From NCBI GenBank assembly GCA_024222295.1, contig JAAEPF010000024.1, positions 310,001 to 374,000 on the forward strand: 64,000 nt of DNA, in the 5' to 3' direction. The notes beneath the pieces are model-generated. The model had not been told where the DNA came from. It ran no database searches and worked only from the letters and a program-made list of their open reading frames with translations. How positions within the stretch are numbered: the first letter of the stretch is position 1; each line of letters begins with the position of its first letter. The stretch comes from Actinomycetes bacterium (GTDB lineage Bacteria > Actinomycetota > Acidimicrobiia > Acidimicrobiales > Microtrichaceae). Both the position numbers and the translations under genes were made by a program. Below, one piece after another: positions 20,112-28,738 of the stretch.

Positions 20112-21575
20112 ATGGCCAAAAGCGAACGCGAATACGGGCTCATCATCGGCGGCGAAAAGGTGCCTGGGGAGGGGTCCTACGACATCGTGAACCCGGCGAC
20201 CGAGGAGGTCATCGCCGAGGCACCCGAAGCTTCGGTCGCGCAGGCAGAGGCGGCAGTGGACGCCGCCGGAGCGGCGTGGGACTCCTGGTCGCGCACCAGG
20301 TCCGAAGAGCGCGCCGAGTTGCTGAACAAGGCCGCCGACCTGATCGACCAGCACGCAGACGAACTGATCCCGCTCACCGTGGCCGAGACCGGCGCCACGC
20401 TGCGCACCACGTCCACCATCCAGGTGCCCCAGGCGGCGGCCCGCCTGCGCCGCTACGCGGAGGGCGCGATGGAGCCCACCATCGATCCGCTGCGCCCCTC
20501 GGTGATGCCGTCGACCGCACTGGCGCCCGGCGGGCTCGTGTCCGCCGCGGTGAACCGTGCGCCGGTCGGCGTGGTGGCCTGCATCACCTCCTACAACTTC
20601 CCGATGGTGAACATGGCCGGCAAGATCGGCCCTGCCCTCGCCATGGGCAACCCGGTTGTCGTGAAGCCCGCCCCGCAGGATCCGCTCGGCGTGATCCGCA
20701 TGGTGGAGCTGATGAACGAGGCCGGCTTCCCGCCCGGCGTCATCAACGTGGTGGTCGGCTCCGAGGTGGCGCCGTCGGAAGCCGTCGTGGCGCACCCGCG
20801 CACCGACATGATCTCCTTCACCGGATCGACCGTGATCGGCCAGCACATCGGCGCCGTCGCCGGTGGGGCCAACAAGCGCCTGCTGCTCGGGCTCGGCGGC
20901 AAGGGCGCCGCGATCGTGCGCGAGGACGCAGACCTCAAGACGGCGATCAATGGCATTGCCTCGGTGTGGGGCTTCCATTCGGGGCAGATCTGCACCGCCC
21001 CCACCCGTGTGATCGTGCATCGCTCGAAGCACGACGAGCTGGTCGGCGGCCTGAAGATGGCAGCCGAGTTCATGAAGGTGGGCGACCCCAACGACAAGGA
21101 CACGCTCGTCGGGCCGCTCATCTCCGCCAAGCAGCGCGGCCATGTCGAGTCGCTCGTGGCGACCGGAGTCGGACAGGGCGCCGAGATCGCCGTTGGCGGC
21201 GGCCACGGCGGCATGGACACCGGCTTCTTCTACGAGCCCACCCTCATGGTGGGCTGCACCCAGGAGATGGAGCCGGTGCGCGAGGAGTTCTTCGGCCCCG
21301 TGATCGTGGTCGTGCCCTATGACGATGACGACGAGGCGGTCGCCATCGCCAACGACTCCGACTATGGGCTCTACTCCTATGTGTTCTCCGCTGATGCGGG
21401 TGCGGCCTGGGGCATCGCCAAGCGGCTGCGGTCGGGCAACGTCGGCATCAACACGCTCCAGCGCAACCACGAGGCGCCCTTCGGTGGCTTCAAGCAGTCA
21501 GGCGTGGGCCGCGATGGCGGGAGCTACGGGCTGCTCGCCTACAGCGAGTTGCAGTCGATCGTGTGGTCGACCTGA
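20112..21575 (+). CDS. Aldehyde dehydrogenase family protein with catalytic Glu replaced by Gly
   Basis: A 487-residue NAD(P)-dependent aldehyde dehydrogenase. The conserved Asn is in TSYNFPMVN (Asn162), the coenzyme loop is FTGST (about 236-240), and the nucleophile Cys294 lies in SGQICTAPTR. EEFFGPV and NHEAPFGGFKQSGVGRDGG complete the signature. The general-base glutamate usually in ELGGK is Gly260 here (LGLGGKG), so hydrolysis of the thioester may be slow, use another base, or release to CoA. It is controlled by repeat site 3 and overlaps the downstream DUF454 gene. Confidence 0.9.
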   Translation: MAKSEREYGLIIGGEKVPGEGSYDIVNPATEEVIAEAPEASVAQAEAAVDAAGAAWDSWSRTRSEERAELLNKAADLIDQHADELIPLTVAETGATLRTTSTIQVPQAAARLRRYAEGAMEPTIDPLRPSVMPSTALAPGGLVSAAVNRAPVGVVACITSYNFPMVNMAGKIGPALAMGNPVVVKPAPQDPLGVIRMVELMNEAGFPPGVINVVVGSEVAPSEAVVAHPRTDMISFTGSTVIGQHIGAVAGGANKRLLLGLGGKGAAIVREDADLKTAINGIASVWGFHSGQICTAPTRVIVHRSKHDELVGGLKMAAEFMKVGDPNDKDTLVGPLISAKQRGHVESLVATGVGQGAEIAVGGGHGGMDTGFFYEPTLMVGCTQEMEPVREEFFGPVIVVVPYDDDDEAVAIANDSDYGLYSYVFSADAGAAWGIAKRLRSGNVGINTLQRNHEAPFGGFKQSGVGRDGGSYGLLAYSELQSIVWST

Positions 21576-22175: not shown

Positions 22176-22258
22176 GGAAGTTCTGCAGAAATCGCTGAAG
22201 TTTCTGTCAGATCCGGTCGGCCACGTCTCTTGCACCCCGAAGGCGACAACGGATCGCC
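22176..22258 (+). promoter_or_regulatory. Upstream leader of LAxTG gene 1, shared motif and hairpin
   Basis: This lies in the 315-bp gap 21962-22276, which has no convincing gene. It contains GGAAG, the palindrome TTCTGCAGAA (22181-22190), GTCAG (22206-22210) and a small hairpin, GGCGA-N7-TCGCC (22242-22258), 18 bp before the ATG. The block resembles the leader of the second LAxTG gene (25034-25107), which has GGAAC, GCAGAAA, GTCAG and GGCGAC-N5-GTCGCC in the same order. The rest of the gap shows nothing I can name. Confidence 0.45.
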
Positions 22259-22276: not shown

Positions 22277-22960
22277 ATGAACAACCACACCGCACACAAC
22301 GACACCAAGGCCAGCACCGGAGGCTCGTTCCTCCGTCGCAACGGTCGGCGTCTCGCCGCCGCTGCCATCATCGCCACCGCCGGTTCTGCCGGTGCGGGCG
22401 CCATTGCATCGGCCGAGCCACATGTGCCCGGTCCGCACTTCGAGGACTTCGAGCCAGTGGTTCCGGACTTCACGGTGGACACCATGCCGCGCGTCACCAT
22501 CGCGCTCCCCGAGCCCAGCATCCCCGACTCCCCGGTGCCGATCCAGCCCGAGGTGACCATTCCGGTGCCGTCGGCGCCCGGCTTCCCGGACGGGCCGACC
22601 ATCGACACCATCCCCGGTGCGCTGGACCCACACATCCCGGACTTCCCCGAGATCCCCACCGATCCGATCGACCCTGAGGACCCCGAGGACTACCCCGGTG
22701 ACGAGACGACCGACACCACGGTCCCCGAGAGCACCACATCCACGACCGTGCCCGAAACCACTGTCCCGGAGACGACCCAGCCCGAGTACCCAGAGGTCGA
22801 GGTCGAAGAAAGGCAGCAAGAGCGCAGCGACGCCAAGGAACTCGCCTACACGGGTTCCGACAGCAAGCTTCCGCTCGTGGGCGCCGGCCTCGTGGCCGCA
22901 GGCGGAATGGTGGGCGGCCTGTCGCTGCTGGCCCGCCGGTCCAGGGTCTCCGAGGGCTGA
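22277..22960 (+). CDS. Sortase-type surface protein with LAxTG anchor (paralogue 1)
   Basis: A 227-residue exported protein. An N-terminal signal (RRLAAAAIIATAGSAGAGAI, then ASAEP) is followed by a low-complexity Pro/Asp/Thr-rich exterior (VPGPHFEDF, TIALPEPSIPDSPVP, TTVPESTTSTTVPETTVPE). The C-terminus has the sorting signal LAYTG, then a hydrophobic helix and a final RRSR, as in actinobacterial class E sortase substrates. It would be covalently anchored to the cell wall, but no sortase is in the window. The exterior is probably a spacer or adhesive stalk. It has a paralogue at 25125, and the two flank a kinase and FHA-like pair. Confidence 0.85.
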   Translation: MNNHTAHNDTKASTGGSFLRRNGRRLAAAAIIATAGSAGAGAIASAEPHVPGPHFEDFEPVVPDFTVDTMPRVTIALPEPSIPDSPVPIQPEVTIPVPSAPGFPDGPTIDTIPGALDPHIPDFPEIPTDPIDPEDPEDYPGDETTDTTVPESTTSTTVPETTVPETTQPEYPEVEVEERQQERSDAKELAYTGSDSKLPLVGAGLVAAGGMVGGLSLLARRSRVSEG

Positions 22961-22996
22961 GATCCGCTAGCAGCAGAATCTCCCCCGACCCCGGTG

Positions 22997-23027
22997 GTGC
23001 CGGGCCCCCACGACGGGAGCCCGGCAC
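22997..23027 (+). terminator. Hairpin after LAxTG gene 1
   Basis: Perfect 9-bp stem GTGCCGGGC / GCCCGGCAC with a 13-nt loop, 36 bp after the stop. No T-run follows, as is usual for GC-rich actinobacterial terminators. Confidence 0.55.
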
Positions 23028-23101
23028 TGTCGCGTGCCAACACTGTGAGCTGTTTTCCTGAGTCATCCAAAAGGTCCAGAATTCAGCGCAATTGGCCTCA
23101 C

Positions 23102-24321
23102 ATGTATCGTTTGTCCATGGGAGACGGGCACGCTGCTGTGGGCCGCGCGGGCGGCCGGTTCGGACCTGAGTACGCCGACGTGGTCCAGATCAGCCGAGGT
23201 GGATCCGGGACCGTTTTCAGGGCCAGGCACGCGCGGCTCAACCGCACCGTCGTCATCAAGGCTCTCGACGCGATCGGGACGGATGGCACGAGCAGTGCTG
23301 TGGAGGAAGCCCGAACCCAGGCCTCCGTCTGCTGGCACTCGAACGTTCTCACGGTACTGGGAGAGGGAACCACGGATTCGGGTTGGCCGTACCTGGTCCT
23401 GGAGGACGCGGAGGGAGGCTCGTTGGACGAGGTCGTCCGGGAGTGCGGCCCGCTTCGAGCGGATCGCGCGGTCGAGGTTGCCCGTCAGTTGGCCGGTGCC
23501 CTCCTCGCAGCCCGTTCGGAGTCGGTGATCCACTGCGATGTGAAGCCGTCGAATGTCCTGCTTGCCCGAGACGGTTCGGTGCGCCTGTCGGACTTCGGTG
23601 CGTCGGTGAGATCGGCGAGCCACACCATCGACCCGCTCCAGGGCTCGCTGCCGTTCGCCCCGCCCGAGCTGCTGGAAGGCCGGAGTCCCGGGCCCTCGAA
23701 CGACGTGTACGGGCTGGGCGCAACTCTCTGCTTCGGTCTCACGGGCAGGGCTCCGTTCGGCGACGCTGACCAGCCGGCGTCCACCACCATCGCCAGGATC
23801 CACACTGAGACCCCGTGCCTTGGTACCGTGGATGCACCGTCGTGGTCCACGGAATTGATCGGCCGGTGCATGGCCAAGGACCCATCGGCGCGTCCGACCA
23901 TCCGCCAGGTGTGCGCAGAACTCGATCGTGCCAACTCGAGCCGCTCCGAGGACGATCAGCCGGCCGTCACCGACGTCTCTGCAACCGCCCACCAGGTCAT
24001 CGGGGCCCGGCGAGCAGTGGTCGAGCGCCTCTACGCAACCCTCGGTGAACAGAGGGGAGCCGTCGCTCTGGTCAGGGGCCTGTTTGCTGCCTTGCGAGGG
24101 AGTGGGTCGAGGCGATCGCCCCGATCATCCGGATGGCCGCCTATGAGCACCCATCTATGTTCCTCGTCATGCTGTCCAACCTCGATGATGTGCACGCGGC
24201 CCTGCCGTCGCAGTGGGTGGCGGAGAACCACACCGGCGTGATGTGGCTGCCGACCTGGCAGAGAGCAGGCCTGCGCGATCGATTCCCCGAACAGTGGGCG
24301 CGGCTCGGGCTGGAACTGTGA
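23102..24321 (+). CDS. Soluble Ser/Thr protein kinase with an apparent frameshift near 24095
   Basis: Eukaryotic-type kinase of about 405 residues. Visible are the Gly-rich loop (ISRGGSGTVFRARH), VVIKALD with the ATP-binding Lys, a catalytic loop HCDVKPSNVLL (Cys in place of the usual Arg, a non-RD kinase), SDFGAS, APPELLEG and NDVYGLGATLCFGLTG. No transmembrane helix is present. The reading frame that encodes the kinase becomes implausible after about 24097 and would stop at 24241. The -1 frame from there encodes a well-formed C-terminus (EWVEAIAPIIRMAAYE, WVAENHTGVMWLPTWQ) and ends at 24321, where TGA overlaps the next gene's GTG. I therefore annotate one gene with a frameshift or sequencing error. 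The start could instead be ATG 23117. Confidence 0.72.
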
Positions 24322-25028
24322 GCGAGTGGCGGGCCGACCCGGGAGACCTCGTGGTCGAGCTCGCGGGGGAGCAGATCGAGGTCGACGCCGGTGAGATGAC
24401 CTTCGGCCGTTCGGGTGACCTCGTGATCGACTCCAACCAGTTCATGCACCGACTCGTGGGGCGTTTCCTTCGCCGCGAGGGTGTCTGGTGGTTGCAGAAC
24501 GTCGGCACCCGCATGCGCCTCGAGCTCGTGGATGTCGATGCCGCCACCACCATGGAGCTGGCTCCCGGCCAGCAGTTGCCGGTCGCTGCAAGCAACTTCG
24601 CGGTCCGTTTCAGCGCGGGCGCGTCCAACTACGAGCTGACCGGCGTTCGCAGGGGTGATCCGATGCAGGCGGACAACGCGGGCGAGATGATCGGCACGGC
24701 GACTGTGGATTTCGGCCAGATCCCGCTGTCGCCGGAACAGCACCTCCTGCTCGTCACCCTGTATGAGTCGAAGCTGCGAACGGGCCGGATCGAAGGATCG
24801 AGCGTGCTGGCATCGCGGCTTGGTTGGACGGGCAACAAGTTCAATCGGAAGCTCGACGCGGTCTGCGACAAGCTCCACCGCATCGGCTTGGAGGGCGTGA
24901 AGGGCACGCAGGGTGTCAGCGCCGACGGGCGCCGCGAGACGGTGCTCGATTGGGCGCTGTCCAACGGCGTCATCGCCCGCAACGACCTGGCCCTGTTGCG
25001 GGCCGTCTCTTCACAGGTCGAGGACTGA
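24318..25028 (+). CDS. FHA-like phosphopeptide-binding protein with C-terminal helical domain
   Basis: A 236-residue protein. Residues about 10-90 resemble an FHA fold: MTFGRSGDLVIDSN, HRLVGRFLRREGVWWLQNVG, with Gly-Arg-Ser and His-Arg in the loop positions that hold phosphothreonine. The second half (IPLSPEQHLLLVTLYESKL, LASRLGWTGNKFNRKLDAVC) looks like a winged-helix or helical DNA-binding domain, so it may be a phospho-controlled regulator. GTG 24318 overlaps the TGA of the kinase gene, a coupling typical of kinase-FHA pairs. The likely upstream signal is phosphorylation by that kinase. Confidence 0.65.
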   Translation: MSEWRADPGDLVVELAGEQIEVDAGEMTFGRSGDLVIDSNQFMHRLVGRFLRREGVWWLQNVGTRMRLELVDVDAATTMELAPGQQLPVAASNFAVRFSAGASNYELTGVRRGDPMQADNAGEMIGTATVDFGQIPLSPEQHLLLVTLYESKLRTGRIEGSSVLASRLGWTGNKFNRKLDAVCDKLHRIGLEGVKGTQGVSADGRRETVLDWALSNGVIARNDLALLRAVSSQVED

Positions 25029-25033
25029 CACCG

Positions 25034-25107
25034 GAACGTCTTCGCAGAAAAGTGTCAGAAAATGCGGGGCTCTGGCTCCTGAAGGGTGAAGGCGACGACA
25101 GGTCGCC
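25034..25107 (+). promoter_or_regulatory. Candidate ECF-type promoter and leader hairpin of LAxTG gene 2
   Basis: GGAAC (25034-25038), a 16-bp spacer and GTC (25055-25057) fit the general -35/-10 pattern of ECF sigma factors. A hairpin GGCGAC-N5-GTCGCC (25091-25107) follows in the leader, 17 bp before the ATG, and a GGAGG-type ribosome site comes after it. The same elements lie upstream of the first LAxTG gene. The ECF-type sigma gene at 26167 is the obvious candidate to read this promoter (inference). Confidence 0.45.
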
Positions 25108-25124
25108 ACCTGGAGGAGTCGGAA

Positions 25125-25997
25125 ATGAACGCATCACGCATCAATCGCAAGCAAGTCGGTATCCGCAGTGAGCGGCGCTCGGTGGCCCCTGCGCCCGTCC
25201 GGCCCGGGATGTTCGTGCGGTTCGCGCTCGCATCGGTGGTCGTGTTGGCCGCAGGGGCTGTGGCTTCCACCGCGGCTTCTGCAGCGCCTGCCGGTGACGG
25301 CTGGGACGACGACGTCGCGGACCGGCTCGGCTCGGTGCCGGCGAAGACCACGCCACCGCTGATCACGATCCCGCCATTGCCAGACGTGAGCGACCTGCTC
25401 CCCGAGCTCGAGCACACGCCATCCGCGCCGGGCGCCCCCCAGCCGGCGATGCCACCTCTGAAGGACCCCGTCGGTGATCAGGCGGGTCCCGACAGCTGTG
25501 ACGACTGCTGGGACCCTTCTGAGCCCGACGTTCCCGAGGACCGGCACCGCATCGTCGCAGAGGAAAGCTACGACGAGGACTACGAAGGCCCGTACCCCTA
25601 CGGATGTGGACCCGACGAGCTCGTCGCCTGCCCCGAGCGCGAACGCCAGGTCCCTAACGACGACCACCGTGACTGCGAGGACTTCGAGGTCTTCGCTGCC
25701 GGAATCTGCGACGAGCCCGGCGAGTCGACGACCACGGTCGTGACCGACACGACCGCTCCCAGCACCGCACCCAGCACGACGACGACTGTCTATGACCTCG
25801 AGGAGATCGAGGTACAGGTCGCGGAGGAATCAGAGGTCCGAACCGGCAAGGACGACAACCTTGCCTTCACGGGCGGAAACTCGCTCCTCTCGCTGGTCGG
25901 AGCCGGTGTGCTGGCGGTGGGCGTGCTGATCGCCGGGCTCTCGGTCGCGGCCCGCAGCCGTGACGAGGCCACCGGTGAGCACCAGGGCCGGGTGTGA
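25125..25997 (+). CDS. Sortase-type surface protein with LAxTG anchor (paralogue 2)
   Basis: A 290-residue exported protein. After a basic N-terminus, a hydrophobic signal (FVRFALASVVVLAAGAVAST) ends at AASAAP. The exterior is acidic and Pro/Thr-rich, with a Cys-containing middle (DSCDDCWDPSEPD, YGCGPDELVACPERE, DCEDFEVFAAGICDEP) that could form disulfides. The C-terminus has LAFTG, a hydrophobic helix and AARSRDE. It shares architecture and leader sequence with the gene at 22277. ATG 25125 is chosen for its GGAGG ribosome site and the shared MN start. The sigma-factor gene follows. Confidence 0.85.
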   Translation: MNASRINRKQVGIRSERRSVAPAPVRPGMFVRFALASVVVLAAGAVASTAASAAPAGDGWDDDVADRLGSVPAKTTPPLITIPPLPDVSDLLPELEHTPSAPGAPQPAMPPLKDPVGDQAGPDSCDDCWDPSEPDVPEDRHRIVAEESYDEDYEGPYPYGCGPDELVACPERERQVPNDDHRDCEDFEVFAAGICDEPGESTTTVVTDTTAPSTAPSTTTTVYDLEEIEVQVAEESEVRTGKDDNLAFTGGNSLLSLVGAGVLAVGVLIAGLSVAARSRDEATGEHQGRV

Positions 25998-26166
25998 CAT
26001 GACCTGGGAATCGCGATTGGCAGTGCAATACGAGCATTGGGACGCAACACTGGAGGGGTCCACCTCGGAAGGGGTCGGGCCCATCCGGTCAGGTCACCGA
26101 GATCCAGCCGGTGGGAACGAACCCACGATCACGATCACAGGCATGGAAGAGGAGACGGCACTCCCC

Positions 26167-27570
26167 ATGGCAGACATCGACGACACGATGGTTGACCTCC
26201 CCGCAGTTGGTGGGGACGACGCGTCGCTCGTTGCCCGGGTTCTCGACAAGGACTCGGATGCCATGGCGGAGATGTACGACCGCTACGCCGATCGGATCAA
26301 CACGATGTGCACGCACATGCTGCGTGACGCCGACGAGGGCGCGGACGTGTGTGGCCAGGTGTTCCTCACCGCTTTCCAGCGGTTGCACCAGCTCCGCGAT
26401 CCCGCCAAGTTGCGTCCCTGGCTGTATGCGATTGCACGAAACGAGGTCTACAGGCGTTCACGGGACCGAGCCCGGGTGCGCCCCATGCAAGAGGTGGACG
26501 ACATGAAGGCACTCTCGATGGACCCGACGGAGTTCGAATCCGCGGGCCCCGACGCAACTGCCGAGTTGCCGAAGGCCGACCCGGCCGAACTGGCTGCGCT
26601 CGTGCAGGCGGCGGCGGGTGGTCTCGACGACCGGGACCGGATGGTGCTGGAGCTCAACCTCACCCAGGGCCTCGACGGCGAGGATCTCGCCGACGCCCTC
26701 GGGGTGAAGGTCGACAACGCCTACCAGATGACCCACCGGATGAAGGAGCGGCTCGAGCGCTCGATGTCGGCGCTGCTCGTGGTTTCCGCGGGTCGTGACC
26801 AGTGCGGCGACCTCGAGGGTGTCGCCAAGAAGTGGGATGGCACCTACGACGTGCTGTGGCGCAAGCGTTTCGCCCGTCACGTGGATGGCTGCGACCGCTG
26901 CCAGAAGATGAAGGCGAAGCTCCCGAAGGCAGTGCTCTCGGGTGCGGCACTCAGCCAGGCTGCCCAGTCGGCGCTGCTCGCGGCTCCGATCTCGGTGCGC
27001 GACGAGGTACTCGGCCAGGGCGCGGCGGTCGTGGCCAGCGCTTCGGGCAAGCCGTGGTCCTCGAGCGGGTTCCCACCGTTGGCGAAGCCCCCTCGGAAGG
27101 TCTGGAAGTACGCCGTCGGGGCTGTGCTGGCCGCTGCCCTGGCGGTGGTTCTCGCAGAAGGACTCGGCAACGGCGAGTTGCTGCCGGTCGACAGCACCGA
27201 CTCACCCGACGTGTCCACACCGTCGAGCGTTGTCACGACCTCGCCTCCTACGACAGTGCCGGGAACGGTTCCGCCCACGACCGGTGCGCCGGTGCCCTCC
27301 ACCACGGTGCCGGGTGCCTCGACGACCACCACAACGCCCCGCGGCTCGGCCACAACCACCCCCGGAGCGACAACGACGGTTCCGTCCGACGGGGGGACCA
27401 CGACCACAACGATCACCGAGGGCGTGCCGGACCCACCGCAGGACCCCAAGTACGAGACCCCACCACAGATCACGCCGATCAATCCACCGTCGTTGTCGAT
27501 CCCGATGCCGAGCATCTACCTGCCGCCGATCTACCTGAACACGACCACGACGTACTACGGCCTGTACTGA
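26167..27570 (+). CDS. ECF-type sigma factor fused to anti-sigma-like zinc motif, membrane helix and Thr/Pro-rich tail
   Basis: About 467 residues in one frame. Region 2 (DKDSDAMAEMYDRYADRINT through RPWLYAIARNEVYRRSRDRA) and region 4 (GLDDRDRMVLELNLTQGLDG, EDLADALGVKVDNAYQMTHR) are sigma-70 domains. Next comes RHVDGCDRCQKM, the His-x3-Cys-x2-Cys pattern of zinc-binding anti-sigma factors. A membrane helix (KVWKYAVGAVLAAALAVVLA) and about 140 residues rich in Thr and Pro outside the membrane follow, ending in a Tyr-rich tip. It is probably a membrane-tethered sigma factor that carries its own inhibitor. ATG 26167 is chosen, with GAGGAG about 13 bases upstream; ATG 26143 or 25999 are alternatives. 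Neighbours are surface proteins, a kinase and an FHA protein, suggesting envelope signalling. Confidence 0.8.
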   Translation: MADIDDTMVDLPAVGGDDASLVARVLDKDSDAMAEMYDRYADRINTMCTHMLRDADEGADVCGQVFLTAFQRLHQLRDPAKLRPWLYAIARNEVYRRSRDRARVRPMQEVDDMKALSMDPTEFESAGPDATAELPKADPAELAALVQAAAGGLDDRDRMVLELNLTQGLDGEDLADALGVKVDNAYQMTHRMKERLERSMSALLVVSAGRDQCGDLEGVAKKWDGTYDVLWRKRFARHVDGCDRCQKMKAKLPKAVLSGAALSQAAQSALLAAPISVRDEVLGQGAAVVASASGKPWSSSGFPPLAKPPRKVWKYAVGAVLAAALAVVLAEGLGNGELLPVDSTDSPDVSTPSSVVTTSPPTTVPGTVPPTTGAPVPSTTVPGASTTTTTPRGSATTTPGATTTVPSDGGTTTTTITEGVPDPPQDPKYETPPQITPINPPSLSIPMPSIYLPPIYLNTTTTYYGLY

Positions 27571-27667: not shown

Positions 27668-28738
27668 ATGAAGGGAATCGTCTTCGACGGCGAGAAAGCC
27701 GAGCTGCGAGACGACGTGGAGGTCCGTGACCTCCGCGCCGGCGAGGTGCGGGTGAAGCTGGCGGCAGCCGGGCTCTGCCACAGCGACGTGTCGGTGCTCG
27801 ACGGCACGATCATGTTCCCGCCACCGGTTGTGCTCGGCCACGAGGGCGCCGGCGAGGTTGTCGCCAAGGCCGACGACGTGACCAGCCTCGAGGTCGGCGA
27901 CCACGTCGTGCTCACGACGCTCGGCAACTGCGGCCGCTGCGACGCATGCAGCCGCGGCAAGCCCACGTTCTGCCGCCAGTCGCTCGGCAAGCTTTCGCGC
28001 CCATTCACCGTCGGCGGGGAGAAGGCATTCCAGTTCGCGAACACGTCCGTGTTCGTCGAGGAGACAGTCGTTACCGAGACCTCGGCTGTGAAGATCCCCG
28101 ACGACGTGCCCCTCCCCTCGGCATCGCTCATAGGTTGCGGTGTCCTCACCGGCGTCGGCGCAGTGATCAACCGGGCGAAGGTCACCCACGGCCAGTCTGC
28201 AGTGGTGATCGGCGTGGGCGGGATCGGGCTCAACGTGATCCAGGGCCTCGCCCTCAGCGACGCGCTGCCCGTCATCGCAGTCGACACCAACCCGAACAAG
28301 AAAGACCTGGCGCTCCAGTTCGGCGCCACGCACTTCATCTGCCCCGAGGAGGGCGCCGACCTCGTCGAGGCAATCAAGGAAGTCTGCCCCAACGGCGTGG
28401 ACTTCGTGTTCGAGTGCGTCGGGTCCACCGCCCTCATCAAGGCCGGCACCGAGATGCTCGACTTCGGTGGCAGCGTGGTGATGGTCGGAGTTCCCAAGAT
28501 GGGCACCGAGGCCAGCTTCGTCGTCAACACGATGTACAACGACAAGTCACTCATGGGCTGTCGCTACGGCTCTGCCCGGCCGGCCTACGACATACCGTTG
28601 ATGGTCGAGCTCTACAAAGCGGGGCGCCTCAAGCTGGACGAGCTGGTCACCGCCACCTACCCGATCGAGGGATTCCAGTCGGCTCTCGACGAGCTGCACG
28701 ACGGCAAGCTCGCCCGCGGCGTGCTGGTACTCGACTGA
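27668..28738 (+). CDS. Zinc-dependent alcohol dehydrogenase (MDR family)
   Basis: A 356-residue medium-chain dehydrogenase. AAAGLCHSDVSV holds the catalytic zinc Cys and GHEGAGEVVA the second ligand region. The structural zinc knuckle is CGRCDACSRGKPTFC. GVGGIGLNVIQG binds NAD and DTNPNKKDLALQFGATH follows. The family includes mycobacterial nicotinoprotein and mycothiol-linked alcohol dehydrogenases. ATG 27668 is chosen because AAGGGG sits 8-10 bases upstream; GTG 27659 is less likely. It overlaps the start of the next gene (TGATG) and lies behind a KstR-like site, so a role in alcohol steps of a terpenoid or steroid-type substrate is plausible. Confidence 0.92.
   Translation: MKGIVFDGEKAELRDDVEVRDLRAGEVRVKLAAAGLCHSDVSVLDGTIMFPPPVVLGHEGAGEVVAKADDVTSLEVGDHVVLTTLGNCGRCDACSRGKPTFCRQSLGKLSRPFTVGGEKAFQFANTSVFVEETVVTETSAVKIPDDVPLPSASLIGCGVLTGVGAVINRAKVTHGQSAVVIGVGGIGLNVIQGLALSDALPVIAVDTNPNKKDLALQFGATHFICPEEGADLVEAIKEVCPNGVDFVFECVGSTALIKAGTEMLDFGGSVVMVGVPKMGTEASFVVNTMYNDKSLMGCRYGSARPAYDIPLMVELYKAGRLKLDELVTATYPIEGFQSALDELHDGKLARGVLVLD

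Follow-up and report, generated by a model that had tools for sequence, protein, structure and literature searches.

A putatively membrane-tethered, ECF52-like sigma factor and a candidate regulon of exported and sortase-anchored proteins in an actinobacterial genome

The stretch considered here, called the window throughout, comprises 64,000 nucleotides of Actinomycetes bacterium assembly GCA_024222295.1 (contig JAAEPF010000024.1, positions 310,001 to 374,000) and is part of contig C24 of this genome, numbered G000 in our set. Five genes follow one another on its plus strand between 22277 and 27570: LP1, encoding a sortase substrate with an LAxTG motif; a Ser/Thr kinase gene; a gene for a predicted forkhead-associated (FHA) and helix-turn-helix (HTH) protein; LP2, a second LAxTG gene; and a gene for an extracytoplasmic function (ECF) sigma factor, which together with LP2 is the main subject here. 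An initial annotation had joined all five into a closed circuit in which an exterior tail senses the wall, kinase and FHA protein relay the signal and the sigma factor reads out surface genes. The LAxTG pair, the kinase and the ECF sigma factor with its HxxxCxxC motif, membrane helix and Thr/Pro tail were all recovered (sorting-signal scan, PF00069 and PF04542).

The sigma gene extends to 27570, with its start at 26143 or 26167; codon use and the ribosome site place it at about 26143-26167 and not at 25960, where the open reading frame (ORF) opens in the ORF list, so that the annotated architecture stands and the annotated start does not. With sigma regions 2 and 4 the protein is placed among the ECF sigma factors: it matches PF04542 (E 1e-9) and, above the cut-off, TIGR02937, while PF08281 is matched under its cut-off, at 20.3 of 25.7 bits. 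The predicted structure matches the SigW fold (prob 1.00), and the RsbN-BldN structure is also among the matches. Following the sigma domains are a zinc anti-sigma-like domain (C221, H246, C250 and C253), a membrane helix at about 27112-27168 and a Thr/Pro tail to 27567. The zinc ligands, one Cys plus HxxxCxxC, are invariant in all 21 aligned relatives, and HxxxCxxC is kept in 38/38 proteins. Zinc domain, membrane helix and Pro-rich exported tail, all traits of ECF52, are thus present, but a carbohydrate-binding module had no Pfam match in the tail at E 0.1, and the protein is not filed as ECF52. By its architecture it looks membrane-tethered and self-inhibited, as had been proposed, and ECF52-like. 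The tails of many relatives (L092, L094, L095, L096, L116) end like '..ATDGNGNTSS..C', an ending that the window tail lacks and that we take to suggest an Ig-like domain. (The names lipoprotein, RCC1-like, WXG-like and Ig-like were assigned by eye.)

Immediately 5' of the sigma gene lies LP2 (25125-25997, plus strand), with an LAFTG motif; LP1 (22277-22960, plus strand) has LAYTG. In both, the sorting-signal scan found a hydrophobic stretch and a basic tail after the motif, and both begin with an N-terminal export signal, as judged by hydropathy alone, so that they are predicted to be wall-anchored sortase substrates. They had been called paralogous; both do carry LAxTG, but their similarity is confined to the sorting-signal region, where 84 residues align at 43%. 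The same scan found no other LAxTG protein in the window; control loci totalling 269,896 bases contained a single LAxTG-like ORF. With LP2 as query, three genes were retrieved from the genome, namely LP1, LP2 and LP3 (G000:C34), though further sortase substrates may exist; two PF04203 matches represent its sortases.

All three LP genes, and the LAxTG genes of the related genomes G001 and G016, are preceded by a common leader consisting of TGTCAG, 16 or 17 nucleotides (nt), CTC, GA, a hairpin and the ribosome site. That of LP1 lies at 22205-22258 on the plus strand (TGTCAG 22205-22210, a 16-nt spacer, CTCTTG 22227-22232, hairpin 22242-22258; an exact pattern match, scoring 65.9 bits with the leader model R1), and that of LP2, which may serve the sigma gene too, at 25053-25107 on the same strand (TGTCAG 25053-25058, a 17-nt spacer, CTCCTG 25076-25081, hairpin 25091-25107; 74.5 bits). 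The exact pattern occurs five times in 17 genomes, each time before an LAxTG gene, and its reverse not at all. Nineteen leaders were extracted and 18 aligned, L107 being omitted as near-identical to an L101 leader. CTC is present in 17 of the 18 and GA in all; one leader has a spacer of 18 nt, the remaining 17 one of 16-17 nt. The hairpin, set by hand in R1 from pair counts, gives a covariation score of 0.399, as against 0.145 (standard deviation (sd) 0.021) in shuffled and at most 0.105 in slid alignments, the alignment having been fitted to the model; without such fitting, 50 sites together give a stem score of 789, where sequences with shuffled letters give 538 (sd 21). Eight leaders folded singly gave z values from 0.02 for LP1 down to -3.76, with -1.73 for LP2. 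Neither the kinase nor the FHA gene has the leader. A search of the block for sigma-70-type promoters found none, and terminator-like sites number one, against 2.7 expected.

R1 was searched in 99 genomes, of which 24 have a match at E ≤ 0.05; the stricter limit of E ≤ 1e-4 is reached in 20, with 43 hits; matches in L113 (E 0.03) and G002 (E 0.002) are regarded as due to chance. One of the 43 runs off its contig. Of the 42 ORFs that can be read downstream of the others, 39 are exported-like, as against 83 of 297 background genes (predicted in the window and in 20 loci with a gene caller of our own), and 17 are LAxTG genes, as against four in the background, all four of these being island genes of the window, L031 and L032. 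Two of the three ORFs that are not exported-like are themselves sigma genes directly behind the leader (G010:C37 and G030:C28). A fourth site in the present genome (E 2e-5) precedes a lipoprotein-like gene. Upstream of some sigma genes the leader stands before a short ORF. In L092, L094 and L095 this ORF has 41 residues, including a hydrophobic stretch and an Arg-rich tail but no LAxTG; in two other loci (L183 13659-13751, L107 2299-2391) it is conserved, 45 residues long and likewise contains a hydrophobic stretch. The genome also has a second sigma/zinc/helix fusion (L121 6682-9140, on G000:C2), at which no R1 leader was found; by eye, it lies 3' of a lipoprotein-like gene and near genes that look like those for ATP synthase.

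Leader and sigma factor tend to occur in the same genomes. In the set of 99, a sigma factor was called at E ≤ 1e-20 among the best candidates, at most 16 per genome; in a sample of genomes drawn from the order, at most eight candidates per genome were scored. On this basis it is present in at least 19 of the 20 genomes with a leader at E ≤ 1e-4 and in at least 12 of the other 79. Among 33 genomes of the family, 17 have both, one has the leader but no sigma factor among its best candidates, one the sigma factor only, and 14 neither (Fisher p 2.6e-7). In the order sample of 258 genomes, leaders were found in 10, all of which are among the 33 or more that have the sigma factor; for the leader genomes that had not been used in the model (G095, G109 and G163), p is 0.001. 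Two of these, G109 and G163, both with the sigma factor, have four leader sites between them, all preceding exported-like proteins and none an LAxTG gene; the three in G163 are more than 1 Mb from the sigma gene, while the one in G109 lies just past it. In the named scan, R1 matched 11 of 13 loci, that is, all 11 from Microthrixaceae or unclassified actinobacterial metagenome-assembled genomes and neither of the two from Acidobacteria; several of these loci are contigs already in the genome set and hence not independent.

We consider it probable that the window encodes an ECF52-like, self-inhibited membrane sigma factor that activates its own gene along with a regulon of proteins that are exported or anchored to the wall, with the kinase and FHA genes belonging to a separate cassette. 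LP2 and the sigma gene would form the working unit. The C-terminal zinc domain and helix, to judge from the architecture, would hold the sigma factor at the membrane until a signal at the exported tail led, probably by a cleavage like that expected for ECF52, to release of the sigma domains. These would then bind TGTCAG-N16/17-CTC promoters at LP1, at LP2 with the sigma gene next to it, at LP3 on another contig and at the lipoprotein-like gene, and the second of these sites would provide positive feedback. Transcripts would start near the invariant GA and carry the hairpin from there on, and the output would be the coordinated production of exported and sortase-anchored proteins. That the sigma factor reads out surface genes, as the initial annotation supposed, is likely and has strong comparative support, because the leader stands before LP1, LP2 and LP3 and travels with the sigma factor across genomes.

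Several observations weigh against such a regulon. TGTCAG is exact in only 13 of the 18 aligned leaders. The six hairpin pairs changed on both sides are matched by 110 of 500 shuffles, the LP1 leader folds no better than its shuffled versions (z 0.02), and the invariant TC stretch is able to pair with the ribosome site. The term exported-like rests on a hydrophobicity cut-off, and the 39 ORFs so classed include some of 41-74 residues and some cut by contig ends. Most of the leaders from which R1 was made are neighbours of sigma genes, which makes linked hits circular; when leader sites on sigma-free contigs only are counted in the family, the sigma factor is found in seven of eight genomes, a weak result (p 0.046), and short contigs hide linkage between leader and sigma gene. 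None of the co-occurrence counts and tests allows for shared ancestry. G027, 81% complete, has a leader and no sigma factor among its best candidates, G007 has a sigma factor and no leader, and 23 of the 33 order-sample sigma genomes show no leader; absences of the sigma factor may be misses, since only the best 16 or eight candidates per genome were scored.

A variant, which seems to us doubtful, would have the sigma factor monitor surface assembly together with the adjacent upstream sortase substrate, its exported tail sensing whether the partner has been anchored; the wall-anchored and exported regulon would then be lineage-wide and its transcripts would begin with a stabilising hairpin. 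It is also rather unlikely that the leader is recognised by some other regulator or ECF factor, one that happens to co-occur with this sigma factor. The leaderless sigma genomes and the leader of G027 would be explained in this way, and binding of the leader by the sigma factor is our own inference; but the spacing within the leader is promoter-like, leaders stand immediately before the sigma genes of G010 and G030, and all 10 leader genomes of the order sample have the sigma factor. Quite unlikely, in our estimate, is that the conserved element acts mainly as a 5' RNA regulator, with CTC pairing with the ribosome site, a hairpin, and an ordinary promoter lying upstream. RNAalifold, run on the leader alignment (A1), failed to predict the hairpin and instead paired CTCY with GGAG, in 17 to 18 of the 18 sequences at four of the five pairs, and the covariation of the hairpin also suits an RNA element. 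A near-fixed spacer of little conserved sequence and the A-rich run before TGTCAG fit recognition as DNA, however, and an Rfam scan of the window gave nothing above threshold except tRNA. (Four weak Rfam matches in the island, to a snoRNA, an miRNA, a mycobacterial sRNA and a flavivirus element, are regarded as chance.)

The preferred reading, that of a self-inhibited sigma factor with its own regulon, has partial counterparts in Streptomyces. There the ECF sigma factor BldN drives LAxTG-type surface proteins, the chaplins, and the window likewise links an ECF sigma factor with LAxTG-type surface genes; the BldN anti-sigma RsbN is a separate protein, whereas in the window an anti-sigma-like domain is fused to the sigma factor. 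Closer in architecture is SCO4117 of Streptomyces coelicolor, a single protein described as containing an ECF sigma part, a zinc finger, a membrane region and an exported tail rich in Pro (PMC5826349), much as the window sigma does. A shortened form without the zinc finger, the membrane region and the sugar module is reported to have accompanied activation of its own gene, positive autoregulation was proposed, and the chp and rdl genes depend on it (PMC5826349). It is called there the first ECF52 member to be characterised, with a promoter signature still needing proof. SCO4117 has a carbohydrate-binding module, unlike the window sigma so far as Pfam detects; its proposed motif, CSGYN-17-SRHA, differs from TGTCAG-16/17-CTC; and the passages describing it mention no paired surface gene or hairpin leader, the word 'sortase' being absent from the text (PMC5826349). 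For ECF48, ECF52 and ECF53, a C-terminal zinc domain, likely a zinc anti-sigma (ZAS) domain, and a membrane helix are described as regulating the sigma factor within one polypeptide, with proteolytic activation expected (PMC8999054); the window protein resembles these groups in architecture, having a fused zinc domain and helix. The initial claim that no described system has this composition fails for the sigma architecture, already reported in these two papers; no description of the full set was found in the literature titles and abstract openings searched. Proteins of the ECF52 type, in which sigma and anti-sigma parts are fused, have been little studied. For an architecture related to ECF52, the present comparison adds a putative promoter with its leader, a set of genes that may form the regulon and a surface gene as possible partner, and control by a membrane-tethered sigma factor thereby becomes testable with a reporter.

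The kinase gene, at 23102-24241 on the plus strand, has a complete catalytic domain (PF00069, E 1.9e-37, positions 2-259 of 263), with HCDVKPSNVLL and DFG recognisable by eye. While this part of the annotated gene is sound, the ORF runs on to 24241 after homology to relatives has left its frame near 24091, to resume in another at 24097-24321 (plus strand; tblastn to L038, E 3e-5, and L039, E 1e-5). Most of the C-terminal domain of the relatives is missing. The catalytic domain is followed by no stretch resembling a membrane helix: hydrophobicity there reaches 0.83, as compared with 2.3 to 3.0 in eight relatives out of 10, and only L038 and L039 likewise have no such stretch at that place. Third-position GC is 0.788, against 0.861 for the FHA gene, and in a tree built after dropping the L042 and L043 rows the kinase sits on a long branch and its placement is unresolved. 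The frame break may be a sequencing error.

The coding frame of the FHA gene opens at 24213 in the ORF list, but its likely start is a GTG at 24318, which by eye overlaps the stop codon of the frame that carries the homologous C-terminus of the kinase. The product of 24318-25028 (plus strand) is predicted to combine an FHA fold (residues ~6-114) with a LuxR/GerE-type HTH (~133-221). An AlphaFold2 model built from three sequences (pLDDT 67) was matched by Foldseek to the FHA domain of APLF (prob 1.00; best FHA rows E 0.002-0.006), the FHA structures of EmbR and Rv1747 are among its structure matches, and Z is 9.1 against VIA and up to 9.8 for the HTH part. The FHA-like character of the gene is thus borne out at the level of predicted fold and not by the Pfam FHA profile, which matches none of 34 members at E 0.1; the window protein has no Pfam match of any kind, and a search of PDB sequences with the FHA alignment gave nothing better than E 0.085 and 0.43 (Rv1264). 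The FHA Gly-Arg is invariant in 34/34 members, while the position that by eye would correspond to the usual phosphothreonine-contacting Ser is Met or Leu. Relatives occur in 40 of the 99 genomes, in up to five copies each. FHA proteins work with Ser/Thr kinases in Mycobacterium (EmbR with PknH, Rv1747 with PknF), and Rv1747 ties FHA to an ABC transporter; unlike these, the window protein has its FHA fold before a LuxR/GerE-type HTH in one chain, and is separate from ABC genes, which the window lacks. A second, truncated relative in this genome (L120 6509-6958, on G000:C2) is about 3 kb from a sortase gene and by eye adjoins a small WXG-like ORF.

Kinase and FHA genes accompany the sigma gene in only three of 36 sigma-match loci, those of the window, G001 and G016, some contigs being short; the initial annotation had named neighbours not conserved together as the observation that would count against a circuit, and this is what was seen. 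In G001 and G016 an aldehyde dehydrogenase gene comes first, followed by the kinase gene, a GNAT-like ORF, genes for an ABC ATPase and an ABC permease, the FHA gene and one LAxTG gene, and then by the sigma gene and an alcohol dehydrogenase gene; the kinases carry a membrane helix, and kinase and FHA gene are separated by the GNAT-like and ABC genes, none of which lies between them in the window. Within the locus stretches compared, this cassette, or the kinase-FHA pair, is also seen elsewhere without the sigma gene. Genes for a membrane Ser/Thr kinase whose C-terminal domain is conserved, a GNAT-like protein, an ABC ATPase and an ABC-2 permease are found at L031 9791-15084, L032 4774-9944, L036 884-6054 and L039 360-4709, trailed in the first three by an FHA-HTH gene. 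In L036 Pfam supports both the ABC genes and the GNAT; in L032 it supports the ABC genes, but the GNAT-like ORF has no match. L031 has ABC ATPase and permease, and the GNAT assignment in L031 and L032 is by resemblance. The dehydrogenases are recurrent neighbours (aldehyde dehydrogenase in eight of the 36 loci, alcohol dehydrogenase in 13), and from this and the rarity of kinase and FHA we infer an older locus of dehydrogenase, surface gene, sigma gene and dehydrogenase into which the cassette was inserted later, probably in an ancestor of this genome and of the genus of G001 and G016. Judged from the sequences compared, what is conserved is the pairing of a surface gene with the sigma gene, and the cassette in the window is decayed. 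A single closed circuit of tail, kinase/FHA relay and sigma output is very unlikely: the order FHA, LAxTG gene, sigma is indeed kept in all three genomes, their FHA genes are orthologous (tree support 100/99) and a kinase with an FHA-HTH protein close by could plausibly take part in phospho-signalling, but against the relay stand the three loci in 36, the intervening genes in relatives, the cassettes without a sigma gene, the shortened, frame-broken kinase and the lack of a leader on kinase and FHA genes.

The dehydrogenase genes flanking the window locus, both on the plus strand, lie outside the proposed switch: an aldehyde dehydrogenase on the left (20112-21575; PF00171) and a zinc-type alcohol dehydrogenase on the right (27668-28738; PF00107, PF08240), each identified by Pfam and synteny. 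The cassette itself is possibly a signalling-coupled transporter. The arrangement nearest to that of the window is found at L038 7825-10228 and L039 4824-7224, where a kinase without a membrane helix at the usual place directly adjoins an FHA-HTH gene.

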